Shown here: in pieces, positions 3,730 through 20,459 of the stretch
How the letters are laid out: each line of letters opens with the position of its first letter
How positions within the stretch are numbered: position 1 is the stretch's first letter
Source: a virus
Reading direction: 5' to 3' (one strand)
DNA: 23,567 nucleotides
IMG/VR virus record: IMGVR_UViG_3300036406_000539
Location: 1 to 23,567 of that record
Notes under the pieces: generated by a model
What the model saw: only the letters and a program-made list of their open reading frames with translations
Told to the model about the DNA's origin: nothing
Databases searched by the model: none
Position numbers and translations under genes: made by a program

Positions 3730-3994
3730 CGTCATCTGCAAACCCTCTTGCATTTAACAGAACGATGTCCGCGTAGCGCCTGGCCTCCTTTATCTCCTCG
3801 CCTGTCTTCGCCCGCATCAGCGTGCGCAGGGCGGTTTCGAGCATCGGGGCGGCGGCCATCAGGTGACCGTTCTCTTCGTGCGGCAGGTCTTTGCGGAACT
3901 CGTCGTACCACTCCAAGCCGGCGATGATGGTGCCGTCGGCGTCCGTGATTTCCATGTCGTGGTACTTCCACGGGGCGGGTGAGGGCTTCTTCAT
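3722..3994 (-). CDS. conserved phage protein of unknown function (PWK...MAAAP type)
   Basis: A 90-residue protein. The ATG at 3994 gives an ATGA overlap with the nuclease stop; another ATG two codons earlier is possible. It has PSPAPWKYHDMEITDADG near the start and ENGHLMAAAPMLETALRTLM in the middle. I recognise this pairing (a short beta part, then N.HLMAAAP..L.AL) from many unrelated phage genomes, where its function is not known. The C-terminal half is helical and ends acidic (ADDDE). It lies between recombination genes. Confidence 0.65.
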   Translation of the reverse strand: MKKPSPAPWKYHDMEITDADGTIIAGLEWYDEFRKDLPHEENGHLMAAAPMLETALRTLMRAKTGEEIKEARRYADIVLLNARGFADDDE

Positions 3995-4755
3995 AGCCAT
4001 TCGATTTGACGTGTGGTGCGCATGGCCGGGTGCCACGGCGGTAGTTCGATGGTTGCCTCGGGGTAGGCGTATGGCTCGCCGTCCCATTCCTTCCAGGCTT
4101 CGATGAGGTCGTCGAGGTAGGCCGCGGCCATGTCGAGCGAGTGCGGGTGCGGCGTGTACACCGCCACGTTGAACGGCTCGCCGGTTTCAACCACGATCCA
4201 CTTGAACTCCTTGCGGCCCGTGAGGCGCAGGTACGCCGCCGCTTGCAGGTGGTAGTCGAACTTGGCCGCGTCCCGCGTGAACGCCTCCGGAGATGCGTCG
4301 CTAGTGGTCTTCACGTCGTACACCGTGCGGTCGTTTGCCGCGTCGATGCGGCCGCGGAACAGCACCCCGCGCATGTCGCACTCGGCGTTGAACTCGACTT
4401 CACAGTGGTACAGGCCGAGAACATGCTCGTTGGTGCAATCTCGCACCGCCGCGGCAATTTGGCTGGCCTGCTCGTAGTGCTCAAACGTGACGAGCTTGCG
4501 CTCGCCTGCATTTGCCTCCGCAACCAACTCGTTGTAGGCCGCTTTGCCTGCGTTGGTTCGGCGGTCGATTTCCAACGGCACGTGTTTGTACCGCTTGGGG
4601 AACGCCAGCGGCTCCAAAATCGCGCAGTGAATCATCTCCCCCAACTGCATCGCCGGGGACTGCTTGCGGCCCGTGTCGGTGACGTACGCGAGGTAGTGGT
4701 TGGGCGATTTGGCAAACTGCTTGAGCGCCGTTACCGATAGGTAGTCCCGCTTCAT
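3991..4755 (-). CDS. RecE-like PD-(D/E)XK exonuclease (DUF3799 / exodeoxyribonuclease VIII type)
   Basis: A 254-residue protein. The start YLSVTALKQFAKSPNHYLAY and LGEMIHCAILEP (H43) are hallmarks of the RecE / DUF3799 group. The nuclease core is visible: D138 in GRIDA, D147 and K149 in YDVKTT, then Q171 and Y175 in YHLQAAAYL, the QxxxY motif of RecB-type nucleases. Family knowledge: these enzymes degrade 5' ends of duplex DNA and hand single strands to a phage annealing protein. A putative annealing protein is upstream and an SSB-like protein downstream. The ATG at 4755 overlaps the upstream stop (ATGA). All catalytic residues appear present. Confidence 0.88.
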   Translation of the reverse strand: MKRDYLSVTALKQFAKSPNHYLAYVTDTGRKQSPAMQLGEMIHCAILEPLAFPKRYKHVPLEIDRRTNAGKAAYNELVAEANAGERKLVTFEHYEQASQIAAAVRDCTNEHVLGLYHCEVEFNAECDMRGVLFRGRIDAANDRTVYDVKTTSDASPEAFTRDAAKFDYHLQAAAYLRLTGRKEFKWIVVETGEPFNVAVYTPHPHSLDMAAAYLDDLIEAWKEWDGEPYAYPEATIELPPWHPAMRTTRQIEWL

Positions 4756-6943: not shown

Positions 6944-7300
6944 TTAATACAACCAAATTACGTCCTCCGGTTTTGATGGGTCGTTGTCCACGTGGATGAA
7001 CGTCGATGAAATGCCGATGCGGTTGAACCCGGCCTCCATCAAGGCGCTGACGATGTGGCACCGGTTGCGCGAATCCGTGCAGTGAATGTCCGCCGCAAGG
7101 CCCAAGGTGTGTGCGCTTGCCCGAACCCCGCCCACTTTCTTGTTGTGCGCCGCGGTGCGGTAGCCGCTGTTGATTTTGAACGGGACCCCGGCGAGGCCGC
7201 GGGCGCGGTCAAGCATCTGCAGGAAGTCCGCATCCATGTGCGCCTCTCCGCTGCCTGGCTTGTCAGGCGAATCAAACTCCGCGTAGTTGAACCACTTCAT
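6944..7300 (-). CDS. endolysin, peptidase M15 (D-Ala-D-Ala carboxypeptidase / L-D endopeptidase type)
   Basis: A 118-residue single-domain enzyme. All zinc ligands of family M15A are visible: H64 and D71 in SAHTLGLAADIH and H103 in FIHVDND. They follow the substrate-loop signature INSGYRTAAHN (residues 43 to 53). The ATG at 7300 overlaps the upstream stop (ATGA); longer starts run into the upstream gene. It would cleave peptide cross-links in peptidoglycan. There is no signal peptide and no separate wall-binding domain, so export must depend on the holin-like neighbours. Confidence 0.9.
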   Translation of the reverse strand: MKWFNYAEFDSPDKPGSGEAHMDADFLQMLDRARGLAGVPFKINSGYRTAAHNKKVGGVRASAHTLGLAADIHCTDSRNRCHIVSALMEAGFNRIGISSTFIHVDNDPSKPEDVIWLY

Positions 7301-7500
7301 GGCTGGTGCTTGGCGAGATGTAACTCGATTCGGCGGATGGCCTCCGCCATCTCCTTGAGCAGGGTCTTCACTTCCACTTCGTTCTTTTCGAGCGAGTGAA
7401 TGCGCGCGTTCATCCGCGCAATGTCCGCGTTCAACTTCACCCACGTGCCGATGATGGCGAGGCCCACAGTAATGGCGATGCCGATAACTTCCGGTGTCAT
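7297..7500 (-). CDS. membrane protein with C-terminal coiled coil, lysis-associated
   Basis: A 67-residue product from the ATG at 7500 (an in-frame TTG at 7509 is less likely). Residues 4 to 21 (EVIGIAITVGLAIIGTWV) are one membrane helix. Residues 22 to 63 show heptad-like hydrophobics with KLNADIARMNARIHSLEKN and are a likely coiled coil. It resembles XhlA-type proteins with the order reversed, or an anchored lysis accessory. Directly upstream of, and overlapping, the M15 peptidase, it is probably part of the lysis cassette. It could be a holin or a spanin-like partner. Confidence 0.65.
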   Translation of the reverse strand: MTPEVIGIAITVGLAIIGTWVKLNADIARMNARIHSLEKNEVEVKTLLKEMAEAIRRIELHLAKHQP

Positions 7501-7524: not shown

Positions 7525-10350
7525 TTAAATCAATTCCAAATGGCCGTGGACGTGGTAAGTGTTTGACGCTATGCACTTAACGCGCGCGCGGGCATACTGC
7601 TCGGCAAGGTTGGTCAGAAAGCTCCCTGCGCACAATAGCGTCACACCCGACCCCGCGACGATGTTCACCGTGCCAATTCCTCCCTGCTCGATTTCAAACT
7701 CCTGCCCGATGCTAAACGTGCCGGTGTTGATGGTGAAGCTTTCCGTGGTGTTCCACATTGGCCGCTTGTACCTCCCCGCATCGCCTGCCACGAGCGTGTA
7801 GCCGCTGGTGGTGATTTCGTCAACGGGCGTGAAGTACGGCCCCTCGCTTACCCACGACAGCGTGCCCGACCCGTTAGTGCGCAGCAGTTGGCCCGAAGTG
7901 CCGTCCGCCGATGGCAAGGTGTATGTGGTCGATGTGGTCAGCGAATTGGGCGCCTTGAGTCCGATTTCTGCCGTGCCGTTGTCGCGAGCTTCCCGCAGCG
8001 CTAAACGCCCGCCGACCGCGTCGTCAAAGCTTTCAATTAGAATCTCCACCGCATAAACGGCCGAAGTGTTATCAATGGTCAACGGGTCAGCCTGCCCGGC
8101 TGATTCAATTGTAAAGTTTCCGAGCTGCAAATCCAAAGTCACCGGCACGTTGAACCGCGCTGACACGTCGTCGGCCTCCAAGATTTTTACCGCGCCGACG
8201 TTGATTTCGAATTCGTCATCGCCGACGCTTATGAAGTTGTCCTGGTCTGCCACGAGCGAGACGATGCCGTTGCGCAGGGGAATGACGCTGTCGATGGTTC
8301 CGGCGTTCACCGCCACCTGCGCCTCGGTGGACGTCAGCGACGCGATGGTGCCGGACGGTGCGACGGGGAGCGGCGGGATGTAGTCCTCGAACTGCGCAGC
8401 CGGGACGGTCACCCCGGACGATGCCCGCGCGAGCTGCACCAGTTCGATGTCATATTGATTGATGCCCGCCGTGTAGGACAGTGTGATGGCCGCGTAGTTG
8501 TTGCCGCCGTGCGTGTAGGTGTCGAATGGCGTGAGGCACTCGCCTGTGCCTTGCGGCCGGCTGTCGTAGATGGTGCCGGACATCCGGCGGAGGTTGGACG
8601 CTTGGCCGAGCAGCCACTCCCTGCACACCAGTGCGTGCAGGTTGCTTTCAAATCCCGTGTTGTAGTTGTAGCGGAACTTGGTCGGTTGGAAGCGGTCGGA
8701 CGCCGCACCGCCCGATGGCAGGGCGAAGATCCCGCCGCCGCGGGTGCCGACGCGGTCGCTGATTTTAGCCTCGGGCAAATCCACCTTGAGGCGCGACGTG
8801 GTGTTGTCGTTGGTCGCCTTGAACACGATGGTGCTGCCCTGCATTTCGTAAATGGCCGTTGGGTAGATGGTCACCCCCGACGCGCTGTGTTCGGTTGGAT
8901 TGTAGGTCGTGTAACTCCCGCCCGCGTCATCTCGGTAGCCGCTCAAGATGCTGAACGCGAAGTTCTCGCTGGTCAAATCGCCCGGCAAGCCGGGCATGTC
9001 GATGGCAAAGTCGAACGTGAGGCTTTCCTCGATGGTGAGGTCGACGCCCGGCGATATGAAGTAGATCCCGTCGTTGCTGTCCGTTGTCCACTCCGTTTCC
9101 CCGTAGGTGAATGACGCAATCAAATCGTTGCCGAGCGAGGTGGCAAAGGGTATCGGGTTGGTGGCAAATTGCCGCAGGCGCTTGGCGTAGTATTGCCCAA
9201 TTCGAACTTTGATGAGGTACTGCACACGCACGCCGAGCGCGGTCACGGAATCCGCATCGTGCTTGAGGTTGATGCGCATGCGCAGCGACAGCGCGGTGCC
9301 GGAGGTGTAATGCACCAGGGCCGCCGGGTTGAAATTTACCGGCGTGCCGTCGAAGTGGTTGGTTGCGCTGCCAACCTCCGCGTACACGTGGTCGATGGCG
9401 AACGGCGATGCCTGCAAGTAGTCGAACGACCGCCGCACCTCCTTAAGCGCAGGCAGGTAGCCATGCCGCCATCCGCGCAGGCGGTTGATGCCGGTGCTGT
9501 CAAGGGCGAACTGCGTGCGGGCCTGGCTGAAGGCGCCAATCTGCGATGCACCGCTGTTGTAGTTGTAGCCCGAGAAGGTATCCTCGTACCAGTGCAACGC
9601 CCATGCGTCAAAGACAAAGCCGGATGTGAGGTCGGTGTCGAAGGTCGGCTTCCAAAACAGCCGCAGCCCGAACGCAAGGCACACCTCCTCAAGCACCTCG
9701 TAGCAACTCCAGTATTCCGCAGGTTCGGCCTCCGCGTCTTTGAACGTGGCGAAGTTCAGCTGAGTGCGCAGGAACGAAATCCACGTGCTGTTGGATGGGC
9801 GGAAGCATTCGAGGTCGTCGATGATGCGGAACCGCTCGGTGTCCGCCGTAATCGACCACGTGCGCAGCGCGTTGATGGCGTTGGTGAGATGGCCCGTTAC
9901 AAGCGCGTAGCCCGTGCCTTCGGGCGATTGGAGGTAATCGACGTTGCGCAGGTTCGCGAGGTCGTCGGTCGCCAGGATTTCCACCTGCTGCGGGTACGCC
10001 TCGTCGATGACGTCAATGAACTCCGGCAGGATGATGCCGCGCCAGTACAGCAGGCCGTTGCTGATGGTGCTGCCGCCGGTGCGGATTTCGAGGAAGTAGC
10101 GCCCCTCGTAGGCGGCGGCGAGGTTGAAAAGCAGGGCGGCGTCGTTGTTGTTCTGCAGGATCATCGGCAGCGTCACCGTGCTCGGGATGATGGGGCTGAA
10201 CCTGTCGTCCCCCTCGAAGTCCAAGCGAAAACCGTAGTCGCCCAACACGAACTCGAACGGCGATGTGCCGCCGTAGTCCTGGTCAAAGATGTTGACGGTG
10301 AACAGCGTGTTTTGGAGGTCGCGGAACTGCGACGTGTAGCGGATGGCCAT
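7525..10350 (-). CDS. large tail-tip / baseplate protein with C-terminal fibre region
   Basis: A 941-residue protein starting on the last base of the tape-measure stop (TAATG). Residues 1 to about 640 form a large, mostly beta region (FTVNIFDQDYGG, YEGRYFLEIRTG, LLYWRGIILPEFID). I associate this with the hub-like protein that follows the tape measure in Bacteroidota phages. From about 690 the sequence becomes fibre-like and repetitive, with the signature TYTLPSADGTSGQLL...GTLSWVSE near residues 810 to 836. A final beta domain rich in Gly, Thr and Ser (837 to 941) is a probable receptor or surface-binding end. No lysozyme or protease motif is seen. The tail-tip role rests on gene order and composition. 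Confidence 0.75.
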   Translation of the reverse strand: MAIRYTSQFRDLQNTLFTVNIFDQDYGGTSPFEFVLGDYGFRLDFEGDDRFSPIIPSTVTLPMILQNNNDAALLFNLAAAYEGRYFLEIRTGGSTISNGLLYWRGIILPEFIDVIDEAYPQQVEILATDDLANLRNVDYLQSPEGTGYALVTGHLTNAINALRTWSITADTERFRIIDDLECFRPSNSTWISFLRTQLNFATFKDAEAEPAEYWSCYEVLEEVCLAFGLRLFWKPTFDTDLTSGFVFDAWALHWYEDTFSGYNYNSGASQIGAFSQARTQFALDSTGINRLRGWRHGYLPALKEVRRSFDYLQASPFAIDHVYAEVGSATNHFDGTPVNFNPAALVHYTSGTALSLRMRINLKHDADSVTALGVRVQYLIKVRIGQYYAKRLRQFATNPIPFATSLGNDLIASFTYGETEWTTDSNDGIYFISPGVDLTIEESLTFDFAIDMPGLPGDLTSENFAFSILSGYRDDAGGSYTTYNPTEHSASGVTIYPTAIYEMQGSTIVFKATNDNTTSRLKVDLPEAKISDRVGTRGGGIFALPSGGAASDRFQPTKFRYNYNTGFESNLHALVCREWLLGQASNLRRMSGTIYDSRPQGTGECLTPFDTYTHGGNNYAAITLSYTAGINQYDIELVQLARASSGVTVPAAQFEDYIPPLPVAPSGTIASLTSTEAQVAVNAGTIDSVIPLRNGIVSLVADQDNFISVGDDEFEINVGAVKILEADDVSARFNVPVTLDLQLGNFTIESAGQADPLTIDNTSAVYAVEILIESFDDAVGGRLALREARDNGTAEIGLKAPNSLTTSTTYTLPSADGTSGQLLRTNGSGTLSWVSEGPYFTPVDEITTSGYTLVAGDAGRYKRPMWNTTESFTINTGTFSIGQEFEIEQGGIGTVNIVAGSGVTLLCAGSFLTNLAEQYARARVKCIASNTYHVHGHLELI

Positions 10351-12680
10351 TACCTGTATCTGTTTGCGTCGCGCCCTGTGCGCTGGTTGGAAATTAGGAT
10401 GTCACGCCCGCTGATGCGCCCGCTGACTACGACGTTGCCGCCCGCCCCACCGATGAGCGACCGCAACTTGTCGAGCGGCGCAATGACCTCGGGGTTGGTG
10501 CGCGCCCCGGGGTACTCGCCCACAAGGCCCATCGTGGGGCCGCTGACGATGCCGCCGTCCGCAAAGCCGGTGATGCTGCCAAACACTTCGCGCATGAGCG
10601 CCATGCCCGCCGTGATGAGCGCAGGCAGGACGATGGCTGCACCCGGCCCGGCCGCGGTGGACGTCTGCGCTGCGGCCTGAATGGCCAGCGCCGTGGCTGC
10701 GTTGAACGCCGCGTCAACGGCCGATGATGCAAAGGCTTTCATTGCCTCCTTGCCTTCCTCGGATCCCGTCAAGATTTGCCCGAACGCGGTGCCGAACTGC
10801 GCGCCAAGTTGCTGCGCCGTAGCTGCGATGTCCGCAATGATTTGCTTCAGGTTCTCGCCCCACTGCTGTTGCGCTGCTTTAATCTTCAGGAACTTGTCGA
10901 ACATGACTTGGTCAAAGTCGAGGTCATCGACCACGTCGTCAATCATTTCGATTTCGTCCAGCACGATGTTGTCCGCAAGGCCCGCCTGCCATTCGGCGAT
11001 GCGCTGGCTTTCCGTTTGCAAGTCGGCCAGCACCTCATCCATGGTGGTGCCGAACTCGCCCGCTGCCGCTGTGATAGCTCCGGCGTTCTGCGCCCTGCCA
11101 TCCCCGCCGCCGGTGGTGGGCGTGTTGACCTTGCCGATTTTCAGCGGCTGCTTGAGCGCGGAGCCAAGGCCGTTCATGCTGTCCGCTGACTCCTTCGCCC
11201 CCGTCTTGATGCTGTCAAAGAACGCGTTGACGTCGTCTTGAATGCCGCCAAGCCAGCCCTCGATGCTGCTGTCAATGCCAAGGGCGTTGAGCACGAGGTC
11301 GACGCCGTGTGCAATCTTGCGGAGCGCACCGATGATGGTGTTGGTAATTAACTGCCACATGCTTGCAGCCACGTCCACAAGGCCGGAAAGGAACTTGCGC
11401 CAGTCGCCCTTGAACAGCGCGGTGAACGTCGCGAGGATGCCCTCGATGACATTGAACGCGCTTCCCAAGATTTGCATGACAACGTCCATGCTTACGGCAA
11501 TCGTCTGCATAATGGCCCCGCCGAACCTATCCCAAAAGGCCTGAAGAAATCCAATCGCCGCAGCCCACAGCGCCTTCACTGCTTCCATGCCCTGTTCAAA
11601 AGCCCCCCTCAAATCCTCAAGCACCGCACTGCCATCGCCGGTGCCGAAGTAGGCAACAATCTGATCCCAATTCGCGATGATGAGCGCAACCGCCGCAGCC
11701 ACCGCAAGGGCGATAGCCGTCACGGGGTTGGTAAGCATCGCCGCGTTCATCGCCCCAATGGCTTTGGTGGCAATCGCCGCCGCGCCCTGCATAGCGGTTA
11801 CCGCTTTAGATGCGTAGCCGAATGCTAAGATTGCCGGGCCGATTGCCGCGACTACGCCGCCTACCACAATGATGATGCGCTTGGTGCGCGCGTCAAGGTC
11901 GCTGAACCTTTCCGCAAGTTCGGTCACCCGCTCGATGATGCCAGTGACCATCGGCAGCAACTGCACACCAAGCGATGCGGCCGCAAGCTTCAGCGCATCC
12001 ATAGCGGTGCTGAACTTGCCCATTGCCGTCTGGCTCAAATTGTACATGGCGTTGAACGCGAACCCGCCCTCCTCGCTCATGCTGGCAAGCGTCTCGTTGA
12101 ACATCTCCACACTGACGGCGCCGCCTCCCAACTGCGAAGGCAGCAGGCCGGTAGCCTCCGACAGCATGGTGAAAATGGGGATGCCGCGCTCGGCCAGTTG
12201 GTTCAGGTTTTCCAACTCAACCTTGCCCTTGGCTTGAACCTTTGCGAAGATCCCGGCCATCTCGTCAATCGGCACACCCGCAGCCGCGGCGATGTCGCCG
12301 AGAAACTGCAACTGTCCGTTGACTTGGTCGATGTCGGTACCGGCCGCAAGCAACTGCCGCGCCGCCGATGCGATGCCCTCGATTTCGTAGGGCGTCTCGG
12401 CTGCGAACTTGTTCAACTGGTCAACCATCTGACCGGCTTGCTCCGCGCCGCCCGTGAGCGACACGAACTGCACTTGCATCGTCTGCAAATCCATGGCCGC
12501 CTTCACCGCCGCAGCACCAAGGCCAACCACAGGCAGCGTCAATGCCATGGACATGTTCTTGCCCAAGTCCGTGACGTTGTCGGCGGTGGATTTGATGTTG
12601 CGCTGGAGCTTGCCTAACTCCGTGTTGAACTGCCGCGTATCCGCGCCAATTTTGACTATGAGGTCGCCGAGTTTAGCCAT
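10350..12680 (-). CDS. tail tape measure protein
   Basis: A 776-residue protein. The start IVKIGADTRQFNTELGKLQRNI is the usual TP901-type opening. Residues 60 to 260 are helical. Membrane-type helices occur at about 268 to 290 (RIIIVVGGVVAAIGPAIL) and 318 to 337 (NPVTAIALAVAAAVALII), with further hydrophobic helices to about 450. The C-terminal region has FADGGIVSGPTMGLVGEYPG and NPEVIAPLDKL, an ending I know from tape measures of Bacteroidota phages. Family knowledge: tape length sets tail length at about 0.15 nm per residue, which gives roughly 115 nm. It overlaps the chaperone extension by 8 nt and the tail-tip gene by 1 nt. Confidence 0.92.
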   Translation of the reverse strand: MAKLGDLIVKIGADTRQFNTELGKLQRNIKSTADNVTDLGKNMSMALTLPVVGLGAAAVKAAMDLQTMQVQFVSLTGGAEQAGQMVDQLNKFAAETPYEIEGIASAARQLLAAGTDIDQVNGQLQFLGDIAAAAGVPIDEMAGIFAKVQAKGKVELENLNQLAERGIPIFTMLSEATGLLPSQLGGGAVSVEMFNETLASMSEEGGFAFNAMYNLSQTAMGKFSTAMDALKLAAASLGVQLLPMVTGIIERVTELAERFSDLDARTKRIIIVVGGVVAAIGPAILAFGYASKAVTAMQGAAAIATKAIGAMNAAMLTNPVTAIALAVAAAVALIIANWDQIVAYFGTGDGSAVLEDLRGAFEQGMEAVKALWAAAIGFLQAFWDRFGGAIMQTIAVSMDVVMQILGSAFNVIEGILATFTALFKGDWRKFLSGLVDVAASMWQLITNTIIGALRKIAHGVDLVLNALGIDSSIEGWLGGIQDDVNAFFDSIKTGAKESADSMNGLGSALKQPLKIGKVNTPTTGGGDGRAQNAGAITAAAGEFGTTMDEVLADLQTESQRIAEWQAGLADNIVLDEIEMIDDVVDDLDFDQVMFDKFLKIKAAQQQWGENLKQIIADIAATAQQLGAQFGTAFGQILTGSEEGKEAMKAFASSAVDAAFNAATALAIQAAAQTSTAAGPGAAIVLPALITAGMALMREVFGSITGFADGGIVSGPTMGLVGEYPGARTNPEVIAPLDKLRSLIGGAGGNVVVSGRISGRDILISNQRTGRDANRYR

Positions 12681-12993: not shown

Positions 12994-13277
12994 TTTTTTT
13001 GGCCGCTTGCAGTGCCAAGCAGCGCGGCGATTGCCTCGCTGATGGCCTGCACATCCTGCACGGTGACAAGGTCGAGGAACTCGTCCACTGTCAACTCGAA
13101 CTTCATGCCCGCCGCCTTGCAGCCGCTTTCGATGAAGTAGTACGCCATCTCAGGGATGCGCGTGATGTCATCGGCATCCACTCCGGTGACCTTCACGCCC
13201 GTCGCCTGCTCAAACTTCCGCCACGCGCCCATAGATGCGCGCAGCGGGTAGGTGACGCCGTTGATTTGAATGTCCAT
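12972..13277 (-). CDS. tail assembly chaperone (gpG analogue)
   Basis: A 101-residue protein between the tail tube and tape measure genes, where the gpG-type chaperone always lies. The start MDIQINGVTYPLRASMGAWRKFEQATG matches the usual opening (a short beta hairpin, then a helix with W.K.E..TG) of such chaperones. The rest is helical. The end (GQKKSAAIKR) is encoded across nine consecutive A residues, where a share of ribosomes should slip to make the longer product. It starts on the last base of the tail tube stop (TAATG). Confidence 0.85.
   Translation of the reverse strand: MDIQINGVTYPLRASMGAWRKFEQATGVKVTGVDADDITRIPEMAYYFIESGCKAAGMKFELTVDEFLDLVTVQDVQAISEAIAALLGTASGQKKSAAIKR
12974..13000 (-). 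promoter_or_regulatory. programmed -1 ribosomal frameshift site
   Basis: On the minus strand nine A residues (13000..12992) are read CAA AAA AAA AGC in the zero frame. Both AAA codons can re-pair perfectly after a -1 slip and then read AAG into the open extension frame. AGCGC (12992..12988) and GCGCT (12978..12974) can form a 5-bp stem directly downstream. Such a stem is usually a few bases further away, so its role is doubtful. The zero frame stops at 12972. Confidence 0.8.
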
Positions 13278-13723
13278 TAAACGATGGTCTCACGTACAAT
13301 TGCGCCCGTCAAATCCATGGTCAGCGACCACGTGACGTTGTCCTCAAATCCGGCGCTCTGCTCCATCGAAGTGATGTAGCCCGCAACATCAAACTCCTGG
13401 TCGCCTGCGTTTGGCAGGGCGCTGCTGCCCACGTTCGTAAACACGGCAAATACCTTCGTGCCAGCGATTTGGTATCCCACCAATGTGTTAAAGCCATTGG
13501 TTGCATCCTCAGCGAAGTAGCCGCTGACACTGATGCTGGCCGATTTCATGGCCGGCAGGATTTCGCGCCATCCGGCGGAGGTCTTCGTGGTGACGTCCCG
13601 CACGTCGGTGGTGAGGGAGATGCTGCACTCGGTCACGTTGGCAACCACGGTGTGGGTGCCATCGGTGGTGCCTGTGAAAAAGCGAACGCTGGATGCGTTC
13701 AGGATGCCAGTGGTCTGTGCCAT
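13277..13723 (-). CDS. major tail tube protein
   Basis: A 148-residue protein with the features of TP901-1 type tube proteins: a short N-terminus, then TECSISLTTDVRDVTTKTSAGWRE. The last part, a D-x-T-T-K-x-S-x-G-W stretch, is a signature of this family. ASISVSGYFAEDA and a beta-rich C-terminal half with VTWSLTMDLTG follow. It stacks in hexameric rings to make the tail tube. The position between small tail-completion genes and the chaperone pair is standard. It joins both neighbours by TAATG overlaps. Confidence 0.9.
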   Translation of the reverse strand: MAQTTGILNASSVRFFTGTTDGTHTVVANVTECSISLTTDVRDVTTKTSAGWREILPAMKSASISVSGYFAEDATNGFNTLVGYQIAGTKVFAVFTNVGSSALPNAGDQEFDVAGYITSMEQSAGFEDNVTWSLTMDLTGAIVRETIV

Positions 13724-14102: not shown

Positions 14103-14239
14103 CAGAACATGGTTAGCAGTTGCAGCAGGTCGGCGATGTTGATGATTCCGTTGCGGTCGATGTCACCGGCCAAGTCGTAGTGCCCGGCCATTCCGGCCAG
14201 CACGTAGCCGAGCAGTTGGATGGGGGAAAGTACCGTCAT
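14102..14239 (-). CDS. 45-residue dockerin/EF-hand-like peptide
   Basis: The ATG at 14239 overlaps the upstream stop (ATGA), and the stop shares a base with the next ATG. Residues 1 to 23 are helical (SPIQLLGYVLAG). Residues 25 to 45 read GDIDRNGIINIADLLQLLTM. This has the D-x-D-x-N-G-x-x-N-x-x-D layout of a calcium-binding dockerin loop followed by its helix. Family knowledge: dockerin repeats bind calcium and dock onto cohesin-type partners; similar single motifs occur in secreted Bacteroidota proteins. Only one loop is present here, with the linker and second repeat missing. Calcium binding and a structural role are inference. Confidence 0.7.
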   Translation of the reverse strand: MTVLSPIQLLGYVLAGMAGHYDLAGDIDRNGIINIADLLQLLTMF

Positions 14240-14631
14240 GGTTCAGCAGGAAACCAGCCTTCCGCGATCATAAACGCCTCGTCCCTGACCGTGACCGTGC
14301 TTGGCACGATGTGCCGAAACGGGAACGACTTGCTGCTAAATATCACCTGCATCAGCGTCATGCGCTCCGCGTCGGTAATCTCCGGGAACAACGACACCAG
14401 CCGCTCCAACGTGACCAGCGGATGCACCGGAATGACGTAGTCCAAATCCACCTGCAACGCTGCCCTGCCGTCCGTCGGGTGGTGGATGACCCCGAACACC
14501 GTGCCGTCGGCTTGGTCGGGGCTTTGGAACTGCAAAGGCAGCGTGATGCAGTAGAGTTCGCGCGTGATGAACTGCGCTCGCTGCGGGCTGCTTAAAATCC
14601 CTTCGGGGCGGACGATGATGTAGGATGCCAT
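14236..14631 (-). CDS. hypothetical tail/neck-region protein
   Basis: A 131-residue protein starting on the last base of the fusion protein stop (TAATG). It is beta-rich at first (YIIVRPEGIL, ELYCITLPLQF, GTVFGVIHHP), with a hydrophobic central part (LQVDLDYVIPVHPLVTLERL) and a C-terminal HIVPSTVTVRDEAFM. No family is recognised. Sandwiched between the neck/fibre protein and tail genes and coupled to both sides, it is probably structural or a partner of the preceding fibre. Confidence 0.65.
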   Translation of the reverse strand: MASYIIVRPEGILSSPQRAQFITRELYCITLPLQFQSPDQADGTVFGVIHHPTDGRAALQVDLDYVIPVHPLVTLERLVSLFPEITDAERMTLMQVIFSSKSFPFRHIVPSTVTVRDEAFMIAEGWFPAEP

Positions 14632-17081
14632 TAGTAGACGTTGAAATAGTCGTTGAGGGCGGATTCAATGGCGGCGCGGTTGGCGGATTGGTCGGAGTTA
14701 TACAAAATAAAAGCCTGAAAAGTACCCTCGAATGAACTTGGATTGGCATTAATGTACCGGCCGACAATTAATTTATCTGCAAAAGCTGTAACCGTTGTGG
14801 TGCTTACACTGCAAATCTCTGACCCTTGAAAAAAAAGCTTTGATGTAGAGTTGCTTATTTGGCACGTGAAAATTGCTTGCGTTCCTTTTATAGAACTAAA
14901 GCTTCCCATAAATGTATTTGAAGCTGATTGACGCAAGTAGTAGTCGTGGCCCGCGTTTAATTGGGCTATTGCCGGTGATTGGTCGCCGTCAATGGCGTTG
15001 CTTTCAGCGAAATATCCATTGCCATCTGTACCCGCCTGCACCCTATTTACAATGTAAATGTGATTAGTGGCAGAGGTTTGATTCAATTCATTTGTAGTAA
15101 TTAATTCACTGCCTGCAAAAGTTGTAGCTGGCAATAGATTGTCTTTTACCACGCCCGTGCTGCTATCGTAGATTTTTGGCTGACTTGCGGTCGTCGTTTG
15201 GATGAGGTCGTTGCCATTTCCGCTTTGGTCATACCACGTGCGGATGAACCCATTTGTCCCCGTGCAAAAAGTAGTCAGCGCGCTGGTGTCAAGGTCTTGG
15301 CCGTCAAATCCAATGTCCTGCTCGGTATTGTCGGACGCCCGCCGCACCCGAATTGCGCTGCCCGTGTAACTTGGATTTAGCCATGCAGTTGCATACGCCA
15401 AACCAACGCCCGACGTATAGCCGTCCAAGATGCCAGTCACGGCAGGCGCTTCCTCCCAACTAATCGCCAGCGTGAACGGCGGTGTGCCGTTGGCCTGCCC
15501 ATCCAAATACTCCTGCCACTTGGTCGCGGTCGAAGCGTAGGTCGTGTCATCGGCGAAGGTGTGCAGCAGCGTCCATGTGTCCACGTCGGTGGCTTCGAAC
15601 GCTTCGTCCTTGTACCAGATTTTCCGCACGATTTTATTGCCAGCCGACGGGGTGTTGCTTTGGATGTTGAAACTTTCCCCGTTGCCCTCAGCGGTCACGG
15701 TGAAGTAGCGTTCGACGGTCAGCGATGCGGTGTTGGCAAGCGCCCGGTTGGTTGCCGCCTGCGTCGCGTAACGCTGCCCGAAGGTGTTGCTGCCCTTCAC
15801 TAAGCCTGACCCGGTGACGGTGGTTCCGGTGATGTTCTCGACCGCAAGCGTGTTGGTCGATGCGGTGTATCTGAACGCGTCCTCGAACGTCAAATTTCCG
15901 GCGTTGTCCTGATAGAACACATTGCCAAGGAAGCCGCCCGGGGGCGGTGACCCGGGCACGTAGCCGACCGAGCCCGGCGCCCACGTGCTGCCGTTCCACA
16001 CGAGGCCCTGACCGGGGTTGGGCGTGGTCGATGCGACATTGGAAAGGTCGGCCAATCGGTAGGCCGGGGTGTACGTGCGAACGAAGATGCGCCCGGTGTT
16101 CGCGTGCTGCCGCGTCACTACGCCAATGGCGATGCGGTGATTGGGCGCAGCCGGTGGCGTTGAGGTCAACTGACCTGCGGTGGTGGAACAGTACAGCACC
16201 GTGCCGACAGGGTGGGCGAGGGTGTTCAGGCCGTAGATAGTGCCGTAACTGCGGACGTGGCCGGGGGTGCGGAATGCCATCGTTTCGCTGGCGATCCCGA
16301 CTACAGATTTGGGGTCGTTGGCGCTGCTGGCGCTGAACGGCACAACCTGCGGACGGTCGCCCTGCACGACGCCGTTGAACGCGACCACCGTGCCAAGGGC
16401 GATGCCTCCGGCGTAGTTGTTGGTGACGGGGAAATCGACCTTGGCCGGGCCGCCGTTAATCCACGAGGTGGATGCCTCGTCGTACACCAACCCTTCGCGG
16501 TCGAGGGGTTCGTCAAGCGCCACGTCGGTGAGGTCGGCGAGGGCGGATGCCGCATCGCCTGCAACCCATTGCGAGGTGGCTGCGTCGTACACCAGGGCTT
16601 GGCCGTCCGTCGGTGCGGGGACGTTGACGTTTGACAGGTCGTCGAGGTTGTACACGCCTGCCTCAATCATGACCTGCGGGATCGTGACGTTGGTGCGAAG
16701 GATGCGCACCTGGTAGTCCGCGGTCACGACGTACAGGCGGCGCGGCTCCTCGAAGTTCATGAGCTCCGACTGGTACTGGCAGCTTTGTACGTTCACGCCC
16801 GCATACGTTCCCTGCACGCGGTCAAGCGTGCCGCGCACCGCGACGCTGATGGCGATGGCGGTTTCGTAGGTGGCGGCGTAGCAGTTGACCTCCACGCTCG
16901 CCGTGTCCAGGGTTGACGGCGATAGCTGCGTGTCGCTCGGCTCGTTGGAGCGGACGTTGTAAACGATGTAGGGCGCGACGTCCTGCTGATGCGCCACTTC
17001 GGGGTACACGCGGGTGCTGACCAACGCGCTCACGTTGGCGTTGTTGGAGAGCAAGTTGTAGATGGCCTTTCCGACTAACAT
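14631..17081 (-). CDS. tail-completion (DUF3168) domain fused to a fibre with a lectin-like end
   Basis: An 816-residue protein from the ATG at 17081, which shares one base with the gp10-like stop; an open frame further upstream is a shadow. Residues 1 to 126 are a DUF3168 tail-completion domain (VGKAIYNLLSNNANVSALV, PYIVYNV, a C-terminal YQVRI). Residues 144 to 211 hold two fibre repeats (LDDLSNV...GQALVYD...WVAG and LADLTDV...GLVYD...WING), and a third lies at 341 to 370. Residues 215 to 338 are a beta domain often seen in phage fibres. Residues 555 to 816 resemble the concanavalin/arabinofuranosidase-type fold (YTGSAIRVRRASDN, FIRTWYDQSGNGND). Base composition falls sharply over the last 170 or so residues. 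No stop separates the parts. The fusion would place sugar-binding fibres at the neck; that role is inference. Confidence 0.8.
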   Translation of the reverse strand: MLVGKAIYNLLSNNANVSALVSTRVYPEVAHQQDVAPYIVYNVRSNEPSDTQLSPSTLDTASVEVNCYAATYETAIAISVAVRGTLDRVQGTYAGVNVQSCQYQSELMNFEEPRRLYVVTADYQVRILRTNVTIPQVMIEAGVYNLDDLSNVNVPAPTDGQALVYDAATSQWVAGDAASALADLTDVALDEPLDREGLVYDEASTSWINGGPAKVDFPVTNNYAGGIALGTVVAFNGVVQGDRPQVVPFSASSANDPKSVVGIASETMAFRTPGHVRSYGTIYGLNTLAHPVGTVLYCSTTAGQLTSTPPAAPNHRIAIGVVTRQHANTGRIFVRTYTPAYRLADLSNVASTTPNPGQGLVWNGSTWAPGSVGYVPGSPPPGGFLGNVFYQDNAGNLTFEDAFRYTASTNTLAVENITGTTVTGSGLVKGSNTFGQRYATQAATNRALANTASLTVERYFTVTAEGNGESFNIQSNTPSAGNKIVRKIWYKDEAFEATDVDTWTLLHTFADDTTYASTATKWQEYLDGQANGTPPFTLAISWEEAPAVTGILDGYTSGVGLAYATAWLNPSYTGSAIRVRRASDNTEQDIGFDGQDLDTSALTTFCTGTNGFIRTWYDQSGNGNDLIQTTTASQPKIYDSSTGVVKDNLLPATTFAGSELITTNELNQTSATNHIYIVNRVQAGTDGNGYFAESNAIDGDQSPAIAQLNAGHDYYLRQSASNTFMGSFSSIKGTQAIFTCQISNSTSKLFFQGSEICSVSTTTVTAFADKLIVGRYINANPSSFEGTFQAFILYNSDQSANRAAIESALNDYFNVY

Positions 17082-17584
17082 CACTTCATGAATTTGGCAA
17101 ATGAACTCCGCAACTCCTTGTACAACTTCGTGCGCATGGCGTCCTGCGTTGCCTTGATGGCGCGCTCGGTAACCTTGTAGTTTGGGTGACTTGCCGACTT
17201 GCCGCCGAATGCGTCCGGGAAATCCCCTTGTTCGACGATGTGCGCAAACCACGCGTCGCTGTCCTTGCCAACTTTCCGCTTCATGGGGTAGTTGGCCCGC
17301 GGCCCGGCGAGGATGGTAGGCAGTTGGCGGTTGGGCGCCCACGTACCGAACGAGCGGCGCAGCGTGCCGGGGGCGACGCGGATGGGCTTGCTGTTGGCGT
17401 AGCGATGGATGACGATTTCTTTGGGGTAATCCTTGGTCATCGTCCGCGCTTTGCGCACAAAGATTTGCGCCACCTTGCGGTAACCGCGCTGCACGTCCTG
17501 CTTGTTCAGGATGCCAAATTTGACGGCCTTGAGGATGCGCTTCTGCGCACGCTCCACGCCCTGCATTTCGGTTGTGATTCTCAT
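17081..17584 (-). CDS. HK97 gp10-like head-tail / tail-completion protein
   Basis: A 167-residue protein. The ATG at 17584 overlaps the upstream stop (ATGA), which is preferred to an ATG five codons earlier. It has the basic helical start EMQGVERAQKRILKAVKFG, then RGYRKVAQIFVRKARTM and a final helix typical of the HK97 gp10 / phage_HK97_TLTM group, which acts at the head-tail interface. The gene order connector, closure, gp10, DUF3168 supports the call. The middle (RRSFGTWAPNRQLPT) is Arg-rich. Confidence 0.78.
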   Translation of the reverse strand: MRITTEMQGVERAQKRILKAVKFGILNKQDVQRGYRKVAQIFVRKARTMTKDYPKEIVIHRYANSKPIRVAPGTLRRSFGTWAPNRQLPTILAGPRANYPMKRKVGKDSDAWFAHIVEQGDFPDAFGGKSASHPNYKVTERAIKATQDAMRTKLYKELRSSFAKFMK

Positions 17585-17910
17585 TCGCGGATGGTGCATG
17601 TAAGGCGCAGCCCATCGTTGCGGCCAATCTCTTGCACCGCTTCGATGTTGTACGTCTTGCTGTTATAGCTGACCCGGTCTTTTGGGTTCACGTCCGCCCA
17701 GGTTGAGCCGTAGCGGATGACGAAATGCACGGGCTGCTTGCTGTATACCTGCTCACTGGCGATGGACTCGCTGCCGGAACCTTCGCGGTAAATGACATCA
17801 GCCCACACCGTTGCCAGTGTGCCCCAACTTTCGACGCGCTGGCCGTAGAGGTCGGTGGTGGTGGTGGCGCGCTGAATGGTGATGCGCGAATCCATGCGGC
17901 CAAATTTCAT
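17581..17910 (-). CDS. head closure protein (Phage_H_T_join / SPP1 gp16-like)
   Basis: A 109-residue protein. The start MDSRITIQRATTTTDLYGQ and the following ESWGTLATVWADV are the standard signature of this family, in which a small beta barrel stoppers the connector after packaging. The C-terminal part (YNIEAVQEIGRNDGLRLTC) also fits. The length is usual. The start overlaps the connector stop and the end overlaps the gp10-like ATG (both ATGA). Confidence 0.88.
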   Translation of the reverse strand: MKFGRMDSRITIQRATTTTDLYGQRVESWGTLATVWADVIYREGSGSESIASEQVYSKQPVHFVIRYGSTWADVNPKDRVSYNSKTYNIEAVQEIGRNDGLRLTCTIRE

Positions 17911-18464
17911 TGCAGCGTTCTGTAAGGTGATACGAGCGCGTCAATGCCAACCTTCAGGCGGGTGGTTATGGTGCCGGTGACCTCCTCCACGCGGTTCTCG
18001 TACAGATGCCCCACGAGCAGCCGCACCGCTTGGATAAGCGGCGTGGGAATGCTGGCCTCGGGGTGGCCGACGACCATGTTGATTTGCACTCGCGCGAGCG
18101 CGTCGTCGTACAGGTCGGGCGGCGACACAAACCGAATGCGCGCCGGGCTGGTGTTTAGGTCGGTGTAGTAGAACGAAGCGCCGAGCGTCTGCGTGGTGTT
18201 GGCCGTTGACAGATAGGTGATGCTGCTGATGCTCTGCACCGGGCCGATGGGGAATGATGCCGACATCCAGCTGTCGAGGTAGCCCACCGCGCTCACGTCG
18301 CCAAGGCGGGTGTCTGCGATGGTTTCGACGTAGGAAATGGCGACCTGTCGCAGCGCGGTGATGTACGTGTCCTCGTCGCTGTGGTCAACGCGCAGGAACG
18401 CTTTTAGGCTCGCCACCGTGATGATGTCGTCGAGCGATGGTGTGCCGGTAATTTTAACTCGCAT
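17907..18464 (-). CDS. head-tail connector (HK97 gp6-like)
   Basis: A 185-residue protein. ITVASLKAFLRVDHSDEDTY followed by ITALRQVAISYVE is the standard gp6-like opening (L..LK..LR.D...ED..I). The end HLYENRVEEV also belongs to this family, which forms a ring below the portal. The protein is longer than many gp6 members because of a beta insertion near residues 70 to 130. The ATG lies 5 bases after TACTTTTG, a -7-like box, in the tail of the capsid terminator, so the message may start almost at the ATG. Confidence 0.87.
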   Translation of the reverse strand: MRVKITGTPSLDDIITVASLKAFLRVDHSDEDTYITALRQVAISYVETIADTRLGDVSAVGYLDSWMSASFPIGPVQSISSITYLSTANTTQTLGASFYYTDLNTSPARIRFVSPPDLYDDALARVQINMVVGHPEASIPTPLIQAVRLLVGHLYENRVEEVTGTITTRLKVGIDALVSPYRTLQ

Positions 18465-18527: not shown

Positions 18528-20459
18528 TTATGCAGCGTTGATGTCCGTGATTTTCGACAGGGCGCCTGCCTGACGAACGTCGAAGTCAAAGAACCGGTTG
18601 ACGTGCAGCACAATCTGCGCGTTGCCTGCCGCGCTGTATGGATCCACGAGAAGGTCGATGCCGCCGAAATAGGCGAGGATGCATCCCTGCTGGAAGTTGC
18701 CGAACAACATTTGACCAACGCCTTCCGATGCGTCCACGAGGTACGGCGTAGCCACCGCGGGGTAGCCGTTGAACGTGTTGGATGCCAGGTCGTACAAGGC
18801 CGAAACGCTGGACACCTGCGCCAAGTTCTTTGCGAACTTGTAAGCGGTGGGTGACATGACGTAACGAGCAGCAGCCAAGTTGCCACCGGCCGCGAGGACT
18901 GCCGATTCCATAGCCACGGCGATAGCCGCTGTGAGGGTCGTGCTGCCGTCCGTCGACTGGTTGTTGATGGTCGCGCCATCCAACGTATCAAACGCCTTCG
19001 TGTCAATGAATGCGTTCATTGCGTTCTGCAATTCCTGCGCGATCACGAGGTCAACTGCGCCGCCGCCCTGCAACAGCAACTGCTTGCTGTAGGTCGTCTT
19101 GGCAGAAACGCGCTGTGGTGACAAGGTCAACTCGTCCATCTCGAGGCCGGACGCTGCGTTGGCATCAACTTCGCCCTCGGCGGTGCCGGTTGCCTTCACG
19201 CTAACCCGTGGGAACTTGAGGTTGCCGGTCATGCCCTGCAACGTCGTCGTGCCCAACAGCTCGATGACCGATGGAGCGCGCAGTGCTTCGATGGCACCGC
19301 CTACGTTCACGGGTACGAATGCGTTGCCGTCTGCCGTTGCGCCGTAAGCGCCTGCGGTGAAGTTGTCAGCGGATGCGCGGTACAACGCCTTGGTGGGGAT
19401 AGCCACCTGGCCGACCACCTGCAAACCCTGTGCGCGCATTTCGCGCTGTGCCTCCTGCGCCCACTCCGCCTCTGCGCCCTCCAATGAGCGGCCGTTGGCT
19501 GCGGACATGATGGCGCGCGACAAGCTGAAATGGCCGTTTACGCGCTCGATTTCACGCTTCTCCGTGGTCGATGCGGTGCCGCTGTACGCGACGCGTGCAA
19601 CCATCGCCTCGTGGTCGGCGCGGTGCTTGATGCGCTTGTCCAGCGCCTCAACTTCACCAACCAACCAAGCAGCGCGCTGCTCCTCAGCCTCGGTGATGGT
19701 GCGTCCTTCCTTGTCGGGGTTCTCCACGAGGGCAACGTGCTCCTCGTAGTACTTGGCGCGGAGCGCCTTCAGGTCATTGAGATTCATGTGTCTAATTTTA
19801 AGAGGTTCAGGTGCAAATGTACGTGACTGCGCCAAATCGGGTTCGTCGATGTCGTCGGGGCTTTCCATCTCCGGTGCGTCAGGCATTTCGGTAACGGTGA
19901 CCTGGACGTTGACTTGGATTTGTTCGGCGCGCTCTTCGGCGGATGAGGCCATGGCGCGGGCTTGTACGGTGGTCGTAGCGTATGCCGGGTAGGTGACGGG
20001 TGACACGTCGTACAGGCGGCCGACCTTCAGCACGGTGCGCAGGTTGGTCTTGTTGTCCCACGCCTCATCCTCGATGCTGAACGCGAAGGACGATTGTGAG
20101 ATGTCACCGCGTTTGATGAGCGTGTACAGGTCGCGCCCCTCCTGCGTGTCGGCGAGTTCGGCCTCGTAGCGCAGGCCGCCGTTGTCCACCGACAGGCGCA
20201 GCGTGCCGTTGGTGGTGCGTGCAAGCGGTACGCCCGTGTGGTTAATGAGCAGCCGGACGTCGTCGTCGGTGCGGCCCTCAAATGCGCCCGTGGCAATTTG
20301 CTCGCGAAAATAGCCAAGGTCGGTGACGTCGTTGAACGTCGCGGCGTAGCCACTGATGCGGCGCTCGCCTTCGGCGGCCCGCACCTCCATCACGCGCAGT
20401 TCGACGTTGTCGCCGTAGGCCGCGCGGATTTCTCTTTCAAATTCCTCCTGTGATTTCAT
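18528..20459 (-). CDS. prohead protease fused to HK97-fold major capsid protein
   Basis: A 643-residue protein. Residues 20 to 165 are a prohead protease of the HK97 type: RRISGYAATFN, H74 in LINHTGVPL and S124 in SQSSFAF as the likely catalytic pair. Residues 166 to 224 are a linker. Residues 225 to about 345 are a helical scaffold-like delta domain (MNLNDLKALRAKYYEEHV). The rest is the HK97-fold shell protein (VIELLGTTTLQG, LKFPRV, then QEL...FDTLDG and TPYLVD). An ATG at 19787 begins the capsid part behind an A+T-rich stretch, so capsid alone may also be made. The 5' end overlaps the portal gene by 23 nt. Confidence 0.9.
   Translation of the reverse strand: MKSQEEFEREIRAAYGDNVELRVMEVRAAEGERRISGYAATFNDVTDLGYFREQIATGAFEGRTDDDVRLLINHTGVPLARTTNGTLRLSVDNGGLRYEAELADTQEGRDLYTLIKRGDISQSSFAFSIEDEAWDNKTNLRTVLKVGRLYDVSPVTYPAYATTTVQARAMASSAEERAEQIQVNVQVTVTEMPDAPEMESPDDIDEPDLAQSRTFAPEPLKIRHMNLNDLKALRAKYYEEHVALVENPDKEGRTITEAEEQRAAWLVGEVEALDKRIKHRADHEAMVARVAYSGTASTTEKREIERVNGHFSLSRAIMSAANGRSLEGAEAEWAQEAQREMRAQGLQVVGQVAIPTKALYRASADNFTAGAYGATADGNAFVPVNVGGAIEALRAPSVIELLGTTTLQGMTGNLKFPRVSVKATGTAEGEVDANAASGLEMDELTLSPQRVSAKTTYSKQLLLQGGGAVDLVIAQELQNAMNAFIDTKAFDTLDGATINNQSTDGSTTLTAAIAVAMESAVLAAGGNLAAARYVMSPTAYKFAKNLAQVSSVSALYDLASNTFNGYPAVATPYLVDASEGVGQMLFGNFQQGCILAYFGGIDLLVDPYSAAGNAQIVLHVNRFFDFDVRQAGALSKITDINAA
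19785..19808 (-). promoter_or_regulatory. possible internal translation start for capsid protein
   Basis: Within the protease-capsid ORF the bases before the in-frame ATG at 19787 read CTTAAAATTAGACAC, A+T-rich in a GC-rich gene. The peptide that begins there (MNLNDLKAL) looks like a normal N-terminus of HK97 capsid precursors. A+T-rich leaders favour initiation in Bacteroidota. The idea is inferred; no strong SD is seen. Confidence 0.45.

Follow-up and report, generated by a model that had tools for sequence, protein, structure and literature searches.

In an uncultivated phage, the protein predicted to cap the tail tube carries in the same chain a long fibre with a lectin-like end, and we consider it likely that this protein is a receptor-binding fibre built on the terminator ring of the neck. 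The DNA analysed here (the window) comprises 23,567 bases and is a virus record of IMG/VR. The fused gene, its parts and the gene that follows it are listed below. All lie on the minus strand; across this region the plus strand contains many stops.

14631–17081, minus strand: fused gene, tail terminator plus fibre plus lectin-like end (816 aa, one open frame)
16698–17081, minus strand: tail terminator domain with the SPP1 gp17/lambda gpU fold, residues 1–128 (PF11367, phrog_347, Foldseek)
16437–16691, minus strand: stalk repeats (LDDLSDV..G.ALVYD..T..W), residues 131–215 (phrog_13853, phrog_9627)
15984–16436, minus strand: beta domain resembling phage cement proteins, residues 216–366 (PF09956 in relative L009)
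15447–15806, minus strand: most conserved fibre domain, residues 426–545 (91% amino-acid identity between A and B types)
14634–15446, minus strand: lectin-like jelly-roll domain (GH54-type fold), residues 546–816 (AlphaFold2, Foldseek)
14697–15161, minus strand: hypervariable tip, residues 641–795 (identity 18–23%, pN/pS 0.75)
14236–14631, minus strand: g131, a 131-aa partner gene directly downstream of the fused gene

The unbroken 816-codon frame claimed in the earlier note is present on the minus strand and encodes a protein of 87.2 kDa (pI 4.6). Both ends of the gene are well supported, since the preceding gene's stop overlaps the start ATG (TGATG) and the next gene's ATG overlaps the stop (TAATG). 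At the N-terminus, residues 5–127 match Pfam family PF11367 (Tail_completion_gp17; E=1.2e-9, 38.8 bits against a curated cut-off of 24.5) and residues 2–139 match the PHROGs tail terminator family phrog_347 (E=3e-21); these matches and the predicted fold bear out the DUF3168 identity that had been proposed for this part. A structure check suggested for the two ends returned terminator folds at the N-terminus and a GH54 jelly roll at the C-terminus. In Foldseek searches the N-terminus of the predicted model had a gpU-like fold, with matches to the RcGTA terminator 6tba (TMt 0.72) and also to terminators or neck/cap proteins of Bxb1, T5 (p142), Mu and pyocin R2 (E down to ~1e-5), and the terminator matches among the best 50 BFVD matches were 122–161 aa long. 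The fused gene is the sole PF11367 match in the whole 23.6-kb record, where a search with this family found no second terminator; in seven related virus contigs it is likewise the terminator gene that gives the sole PF11367 match, six having it fused and one plain.

The surrounding genes place the fused gene in the neck region.

17907–18464, minus strand: head–tail adaptor Ad1 (phrog_40, E=3e-17)
17581–17910, minus strand: head closure protein Hc1, the stopper (PF05521, E=1.2e-20; phrog_25)
17081–17599, minus strand: neck-protein slot (gp10-like by position), 172 aa, between Hc1 and the terminator and conserved in relatives
13277–13723, minus strand: major tail tube protein (PF06199, E=1e-14; phrog_1407)
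10350–12680, minus strand: tape measure protein (PF20155, E=3e-17)
7525–10350, minus strand: 941-aa tail-tip candidate (minor-tail families)

Read along the minus strand, the order is terminase, portal, protease-plus-capsid, Ad1, Hc1, the 172-aa neck-slot protein and the fused gene, followed by g131, a 73-aa gene, the major tail protein (MTP), two small genes, the tape measure protein (TMP) and the 941-aa tail protein. The fused gene therefore stands, as the sole terminator copy, between the neck genes and the major tail protein, and relatives whose terminator is a plain protein of 130 aa keep the same Ad1–Hc1–neck–terminator–MTP–TMP order. Two claims of the earlier note about this neighbourhood hold in part. 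The neck position stands, in that the gene fills the slot between Hc1 and the major tail protein, but the neighbour called gp10-like had no significant HMM match in Pfam or PHROGs and is named by position. A separate tail-tip protein has a candidate at 7525–10350, but its matches to minor-tail families are confined to the last 100 residues. The protease–capsid fusion upstream is a 643-aa ORF (18528–20459, minus strand) that matches head maturation protease and major capsid families, and an endolysin/peptidase-like gene lies at 6944–7444 (minus strand).

AlphaFold2 modelled the C-terminal 271 residues, with 46 relatives in the alignment, as a jelly roll (pLDDT 82, pTM 0.85), in agreement with the concanavalin-like end proposed beforehand. 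The nearest Foldseek match was the GH54 arabinofuranosidase AbfB (TMq 0.63–0.71), followed by sialidase and neurotoxin lectin-like domains; a kinship with clostridial toxins was rejected, since the binding-domain matches represent a common lectin-like fold. By sequence, residues 558–815 match the virion structural protein family phrog_10356 (E=8e-20) and residues 565–634 match PF09206 (ArabFuran-catal; E=2.7e-10), the latter over profile positions 19–90 of 315 only. Similarity to the 482-residue arabinofuranosidase is likewise limited to its first ~90 residues (alignment end at about residue 88). Because this similarity stops early and the remainder of the domain is hypervariable, the domain has probably not kept an enzyme active site, and from the modelled fold the ligand is probably a host surface sugar. 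Two tandem copies of the lectin domain occur within the fused protein of L040, L041, L042 and L043. The phrog_10356 profile aligns both to Hc1 (positions 4–103) and to the lectin (335–624), which hints at another neck ring with the same domain, some phage perhaps having this lectin fused to its head-closure protein.

The earlier note had called for a search for the same fusion in other phages. One scan yielded 51 related contigs, and the full-length fusion was found in 21 contigs besides the window, from many different metagenomes and 58–100% identical, with the frame open through the junction. The resulting alignment set of 22 full-length single-frame sequences (these 21 and the window) contains two terminator types, A and B, whose mutual identity is only 25% but whose fibre residues 131–640 are 71–91% identical between types. 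The tip behaves differently from both, with a mean identity of 18–23% within as well as between terminator types. Nearly identical tips are found on dissimilar terminators in the window and L009 (tip 97%, terminator 26%), in L008 and L021 (99% and 26%) and in L015 and L025 (94% and 21%), and these sequence comparisons indicate that tips are exchanged between phages and terminator types by recombination. Individual tip swaps could be assembly chimeras, although there are three independent cases. Phage receptor-binding proteins typically combine a conserved anchor and stalk with a hypervariable tip that is exchanged, which is the pattern found here. L113:5001–7243 and L144 have an interrupted fused frame (the breaks lie near residue 400 and within the tip, respectively), through either sequencing error or decay. 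All fused examples are metagenomic sequences, and tblastn searches with the window terminator, the type-B terminator and g131 found no isolated phage with the fusion. Relatives among isolates, Bacteroides phage F4 and Paracoccus phage Pthi1, have ordinary terminators, that of F4 being a 129-aa tail completion protein in the same neck gene order.

Between the two ends, the full-length structure model is poor (residues 130 to 548, with a low-confidence stalk); independent tests support the fibre that had been read in this part. Identity in the stalk repeats (residues 131–215) is 85% among type A sequences and 74% across types A and B. The beta domain (residues 216–366) matches phage proteins annotated as tail fibre or fibritin, and in L009 it shows a weak resemblance to PF09956 (E=8e-5), slightly below the curated cut-off. 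In the most conserved stretch, residues 426–545, pS falls to 0.22–0.27 compared with 0.41–0.75 in other regions, as expected if recombination passes through it, and this stretch is a possible recombination handle for tip exchange. The window also encodes an exonuclease VIII-like recombination nuclease (3991–4755, minus strand), which could help recombination in the fibre.

The partner gene g131 comes directly after the lectin fibre at all 41 of the 41 distinct complete loci for which flanking sequence exists, and at none of 28 loci that lack the lectin (both sets were gathered without g131 as query). It is 90–98% identical across most of both terminator types, compared with only 28% for Hc1. 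No significant match to g131 was found in Pfam, PHROGs, PDB or 50,697 phage records, and it has more than 400 relatives in IMG/VR; it is thus a conserved family absent from the libraries searched. Our guess is that it serves as a fibre-folding or assembly factor.

A survey using the terminator domain alone revealed the same kind of fusion in dozens of related phages. Extensions start at the same point after the terminator and range from none (a 130-aa protein) to ~940 aa. The forms include plain 130-aa terminators with nothing attached (L115–L129 except L121 and L126), 261-aa terminators followed by one small beta domain (in L063 among others), 288-aa proteins in which the other terminator type bears a small related domain (L140–L143), terminators with fibre and lectin (~650–1075 aa) and an 819-aa protein with a different fibre (L126). 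In L228:770–1921 the lectin is joined directly to the terminator; the stalk and g131 are both missing, and the fusion appears to be an independent one. On the terminator tree, built from few columns, extension class needs 10 changes where the minimum is 4, a few of these changes coming from truncated rows. The N-terminus of L041 (hhalign 83%, Pfam E=0.039) is, from profile comparison, a probable third, diverged terminator. Another N-terminal class, beginning MITFNNIV (L163, L167, L199, L219, L259 and L264), bears one or, in some members, several copies of the lectin together with g131; its helix–strand pattern looks terminator-like, but hhalign against the terminator gave a probability of 0.1, which does not establish homology. 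In L034–L036 a collagen-like carrier protein, whose gene adjoins the portal gene in a 65-kb contig of an unrelated phage type, bears the lectin (~85%) and is followed by g131 (94%). We slightly favour the broader proposal that the terminator is a general docking platform, in which a mobile two-gene cassette (the lectin-tipped fibre and g131) would have been joined repeatedly to unrelated terminators and to at least one non-terminator carrier, which would give phages a neck adhesin that is exchangeable and does not depend on the tail tip. Among 294 Planctomycetota genomes sampled, the PF11367 loci that were read are ordinary except for one fusion in a Pirellulaceae MAG, the tip of which is interrupted; long PF11367 frames in this phylum were rejected as further fusions because the loci read contain a spurious upstream open frame around ordinary terminators.

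Several other explanations of the fused gene were weighed. The record is a metagenomic contig, as would suit an assembly or sequencing artefact that joined two genes, but we find this scarcely credible given 22 full-length fusion ORFs from many metagenomes that span 57–100% identity and keep the junction open. A frameshift error near residues 126–140, raised in the earlier note, is excluded because the frame is open in the full-length relatives and because the junction (residues 120–160) has a pN/pS of 0.28, comparable to that of the terminator domain. An internal start yielding a free fibre was also rejected, as residues 126–165 contain no start codon common to types A and B. Some phage structural proteins undergo processing, and the middle domain weakly resembles capsid-bound phage cement proteins; the fusion might then be cleaved after translation, the terminator half capping the tail and the fibre being released or attached elsewhere (tail or capsid). 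We consider this unlikely because no cleavage signal was identified in the protein, the junction is under purifying selection, fibre-less terminators are plain 130-aa genes, so that a fusion is not needed for making a terminator, and the stalk-less terminator–lectin fusion of L228 exists.

The remaining alternatives each concern one end of the protein. At the C-terminus, an active depolymerase or arabinofuranosidase in place of a lectin would fit the nearest fold, GH54 arabinofuranosidase B, and the Pfam match to the GH54 catalytic domain (PF09206); the phage domain shares with the GH54 alpha-L-arabinofuranosidase B catalytic domain both the jelly-roll fold and an N-terminal sequence motif. 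The catalytic half, however, is not conserved in the phage domain, which is hypervariable there, and the catalytic E221 (named in PDB entry 6sxr) lies beyond the ~90 aligned residues. The hypervariable part holds no invariant acidic residue, making one conserved active site unlikely, and we regard the enzyme interpretation as improbable. D297, which we take to be the second GH54 catalytic residue, is also beyond the aligned part. The gpU-like fold is related to that of other tail proteins, and the N-terminal domain might accordingly be a different, terminator-like ring, the true terminator being an unrecognised protein; this is very unlikely, however, in view of the single PF11367 match in the record, the exact neck gene position and the ordinary 130-aa terminator, without g131, that close relatives have in the same slot.

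The best explanation is the neck adhesin, an interpretation already advanced in the earlier note and supported here by independent tests of the DUF3168 domain, its position at the neck, the fibre and the C-terminal concanavalin-like region. The exchanged, hypervariable tip is further evidence for receptor binding, which the earlier note lacked. The domain identities, the neck gene order, the conservation of the fusion, the tip exchange and the g131 linkage were established computationally. Terminators are hexamers placed between tube and stopper (R4C, T5), and by analogy residues 1–128 would form a hexameric ring capping the tail tube and contacting the head stopper. Each ring subunit would continue into an outward arm composed of stalk, beta domain, conserved spacer and jelly roll with hypervariable tip. 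In E217 the terminator-like gp29 has a C-terminal extension directed outward from the ring (PMC10329688), and if the extension projects likewise here, the arms would be exposed at the neck in mature virions. Their number may be six, one per subunit, or, should the cement-like domain form trimers as it hints, two fibres of three chains each; a six-chain ring and three-chain fibres have no simple match, which we counted against the neck interpretation. Such arms would add reversible adhesion beside the tail-tip receptor binder, their tips being swapped by recombination, perhaps at the conserved 426–545 stretch, and the fibre and g131 would form a cassette moved by recombination between terminators and other carriers. 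The attachment would be covalent, readable from sequence and on a ring of known structure, which would make it directly testable. If the interpretation is true, a ring regarded as purely structural also serves host recognition, many uncultivated phages have a second receptor-binding site away from the tail tip, and receptor-binding searches confined to tail-tip genes miss the neck site.

Neck adhesion fibres are known already; what appears new here is the terminator anchor, together with the partner gene g131. We found no description of a terminator–fibre fusion in the open-access literature searched, and the earlier remark that no example was described held for the sources searched, published or annotated, so a terminator serving as the anchor of a neck fibre looks undescribed. 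Known tail terminators (SPP1 gp17, lambda gpU, T5 p142 and RcGTA) share the family, fold and neck gene position of the N-terminal 128 residues but are ~120–165 aa long, whereas the fused protein adds a 690-aa fibre with a lectin-like end. Extra terminator C-terminal domains reported to date, that of E217 gp29 among them, serve sheath binding or are duplications (PMC11784142, PMC10329688).

The lactococcal neck passage structure (NPS) of 936 and P335 phages resembles the fused protein in its predicted neck location, elongated fibre and variable ends of carbohydrate-binding type. The neck fibres of lactococcal phages carry carbohydrate-binding modules at their ends, and one such module bound host cells; the NPS copy number is thought to be 18 (PMC6669499). 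The NPS, the best-studied neck fibre, is, however, a separate gene with a BppU-like anchor, and its attachment to the neck is stated as unknown (PMC10747895), whereas the fused protein is anchored by the terminator itself: in place of a separate whisker gene with its own anchor (a BppU-like or fibritin N-terminus), the PF11367 domain is in the same chain. The fused protein may thus work like an NPS but is not itself one. T4 fibritin whiskers are similarly fibres at the head–tail joint but come from a separate gene. In Alteromonas phage R7M the whiskers have likewise been attributed, tentatively, to a gene of their own (PMC8265664); its terminator is a free protein of 140 aa, and the candidate whisker gene encodes 1154 aa. 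The ‘evolved’ Dit and MTP/TpeX of lactococcal phages share the principle of carrying a sugar-binding domain on a structural ring protein (PMC6669499), although on a different ring. TpeX is extended in some copies only, by programmed frameshifting, whereas for the fused terminator an extension on every copy is expected.
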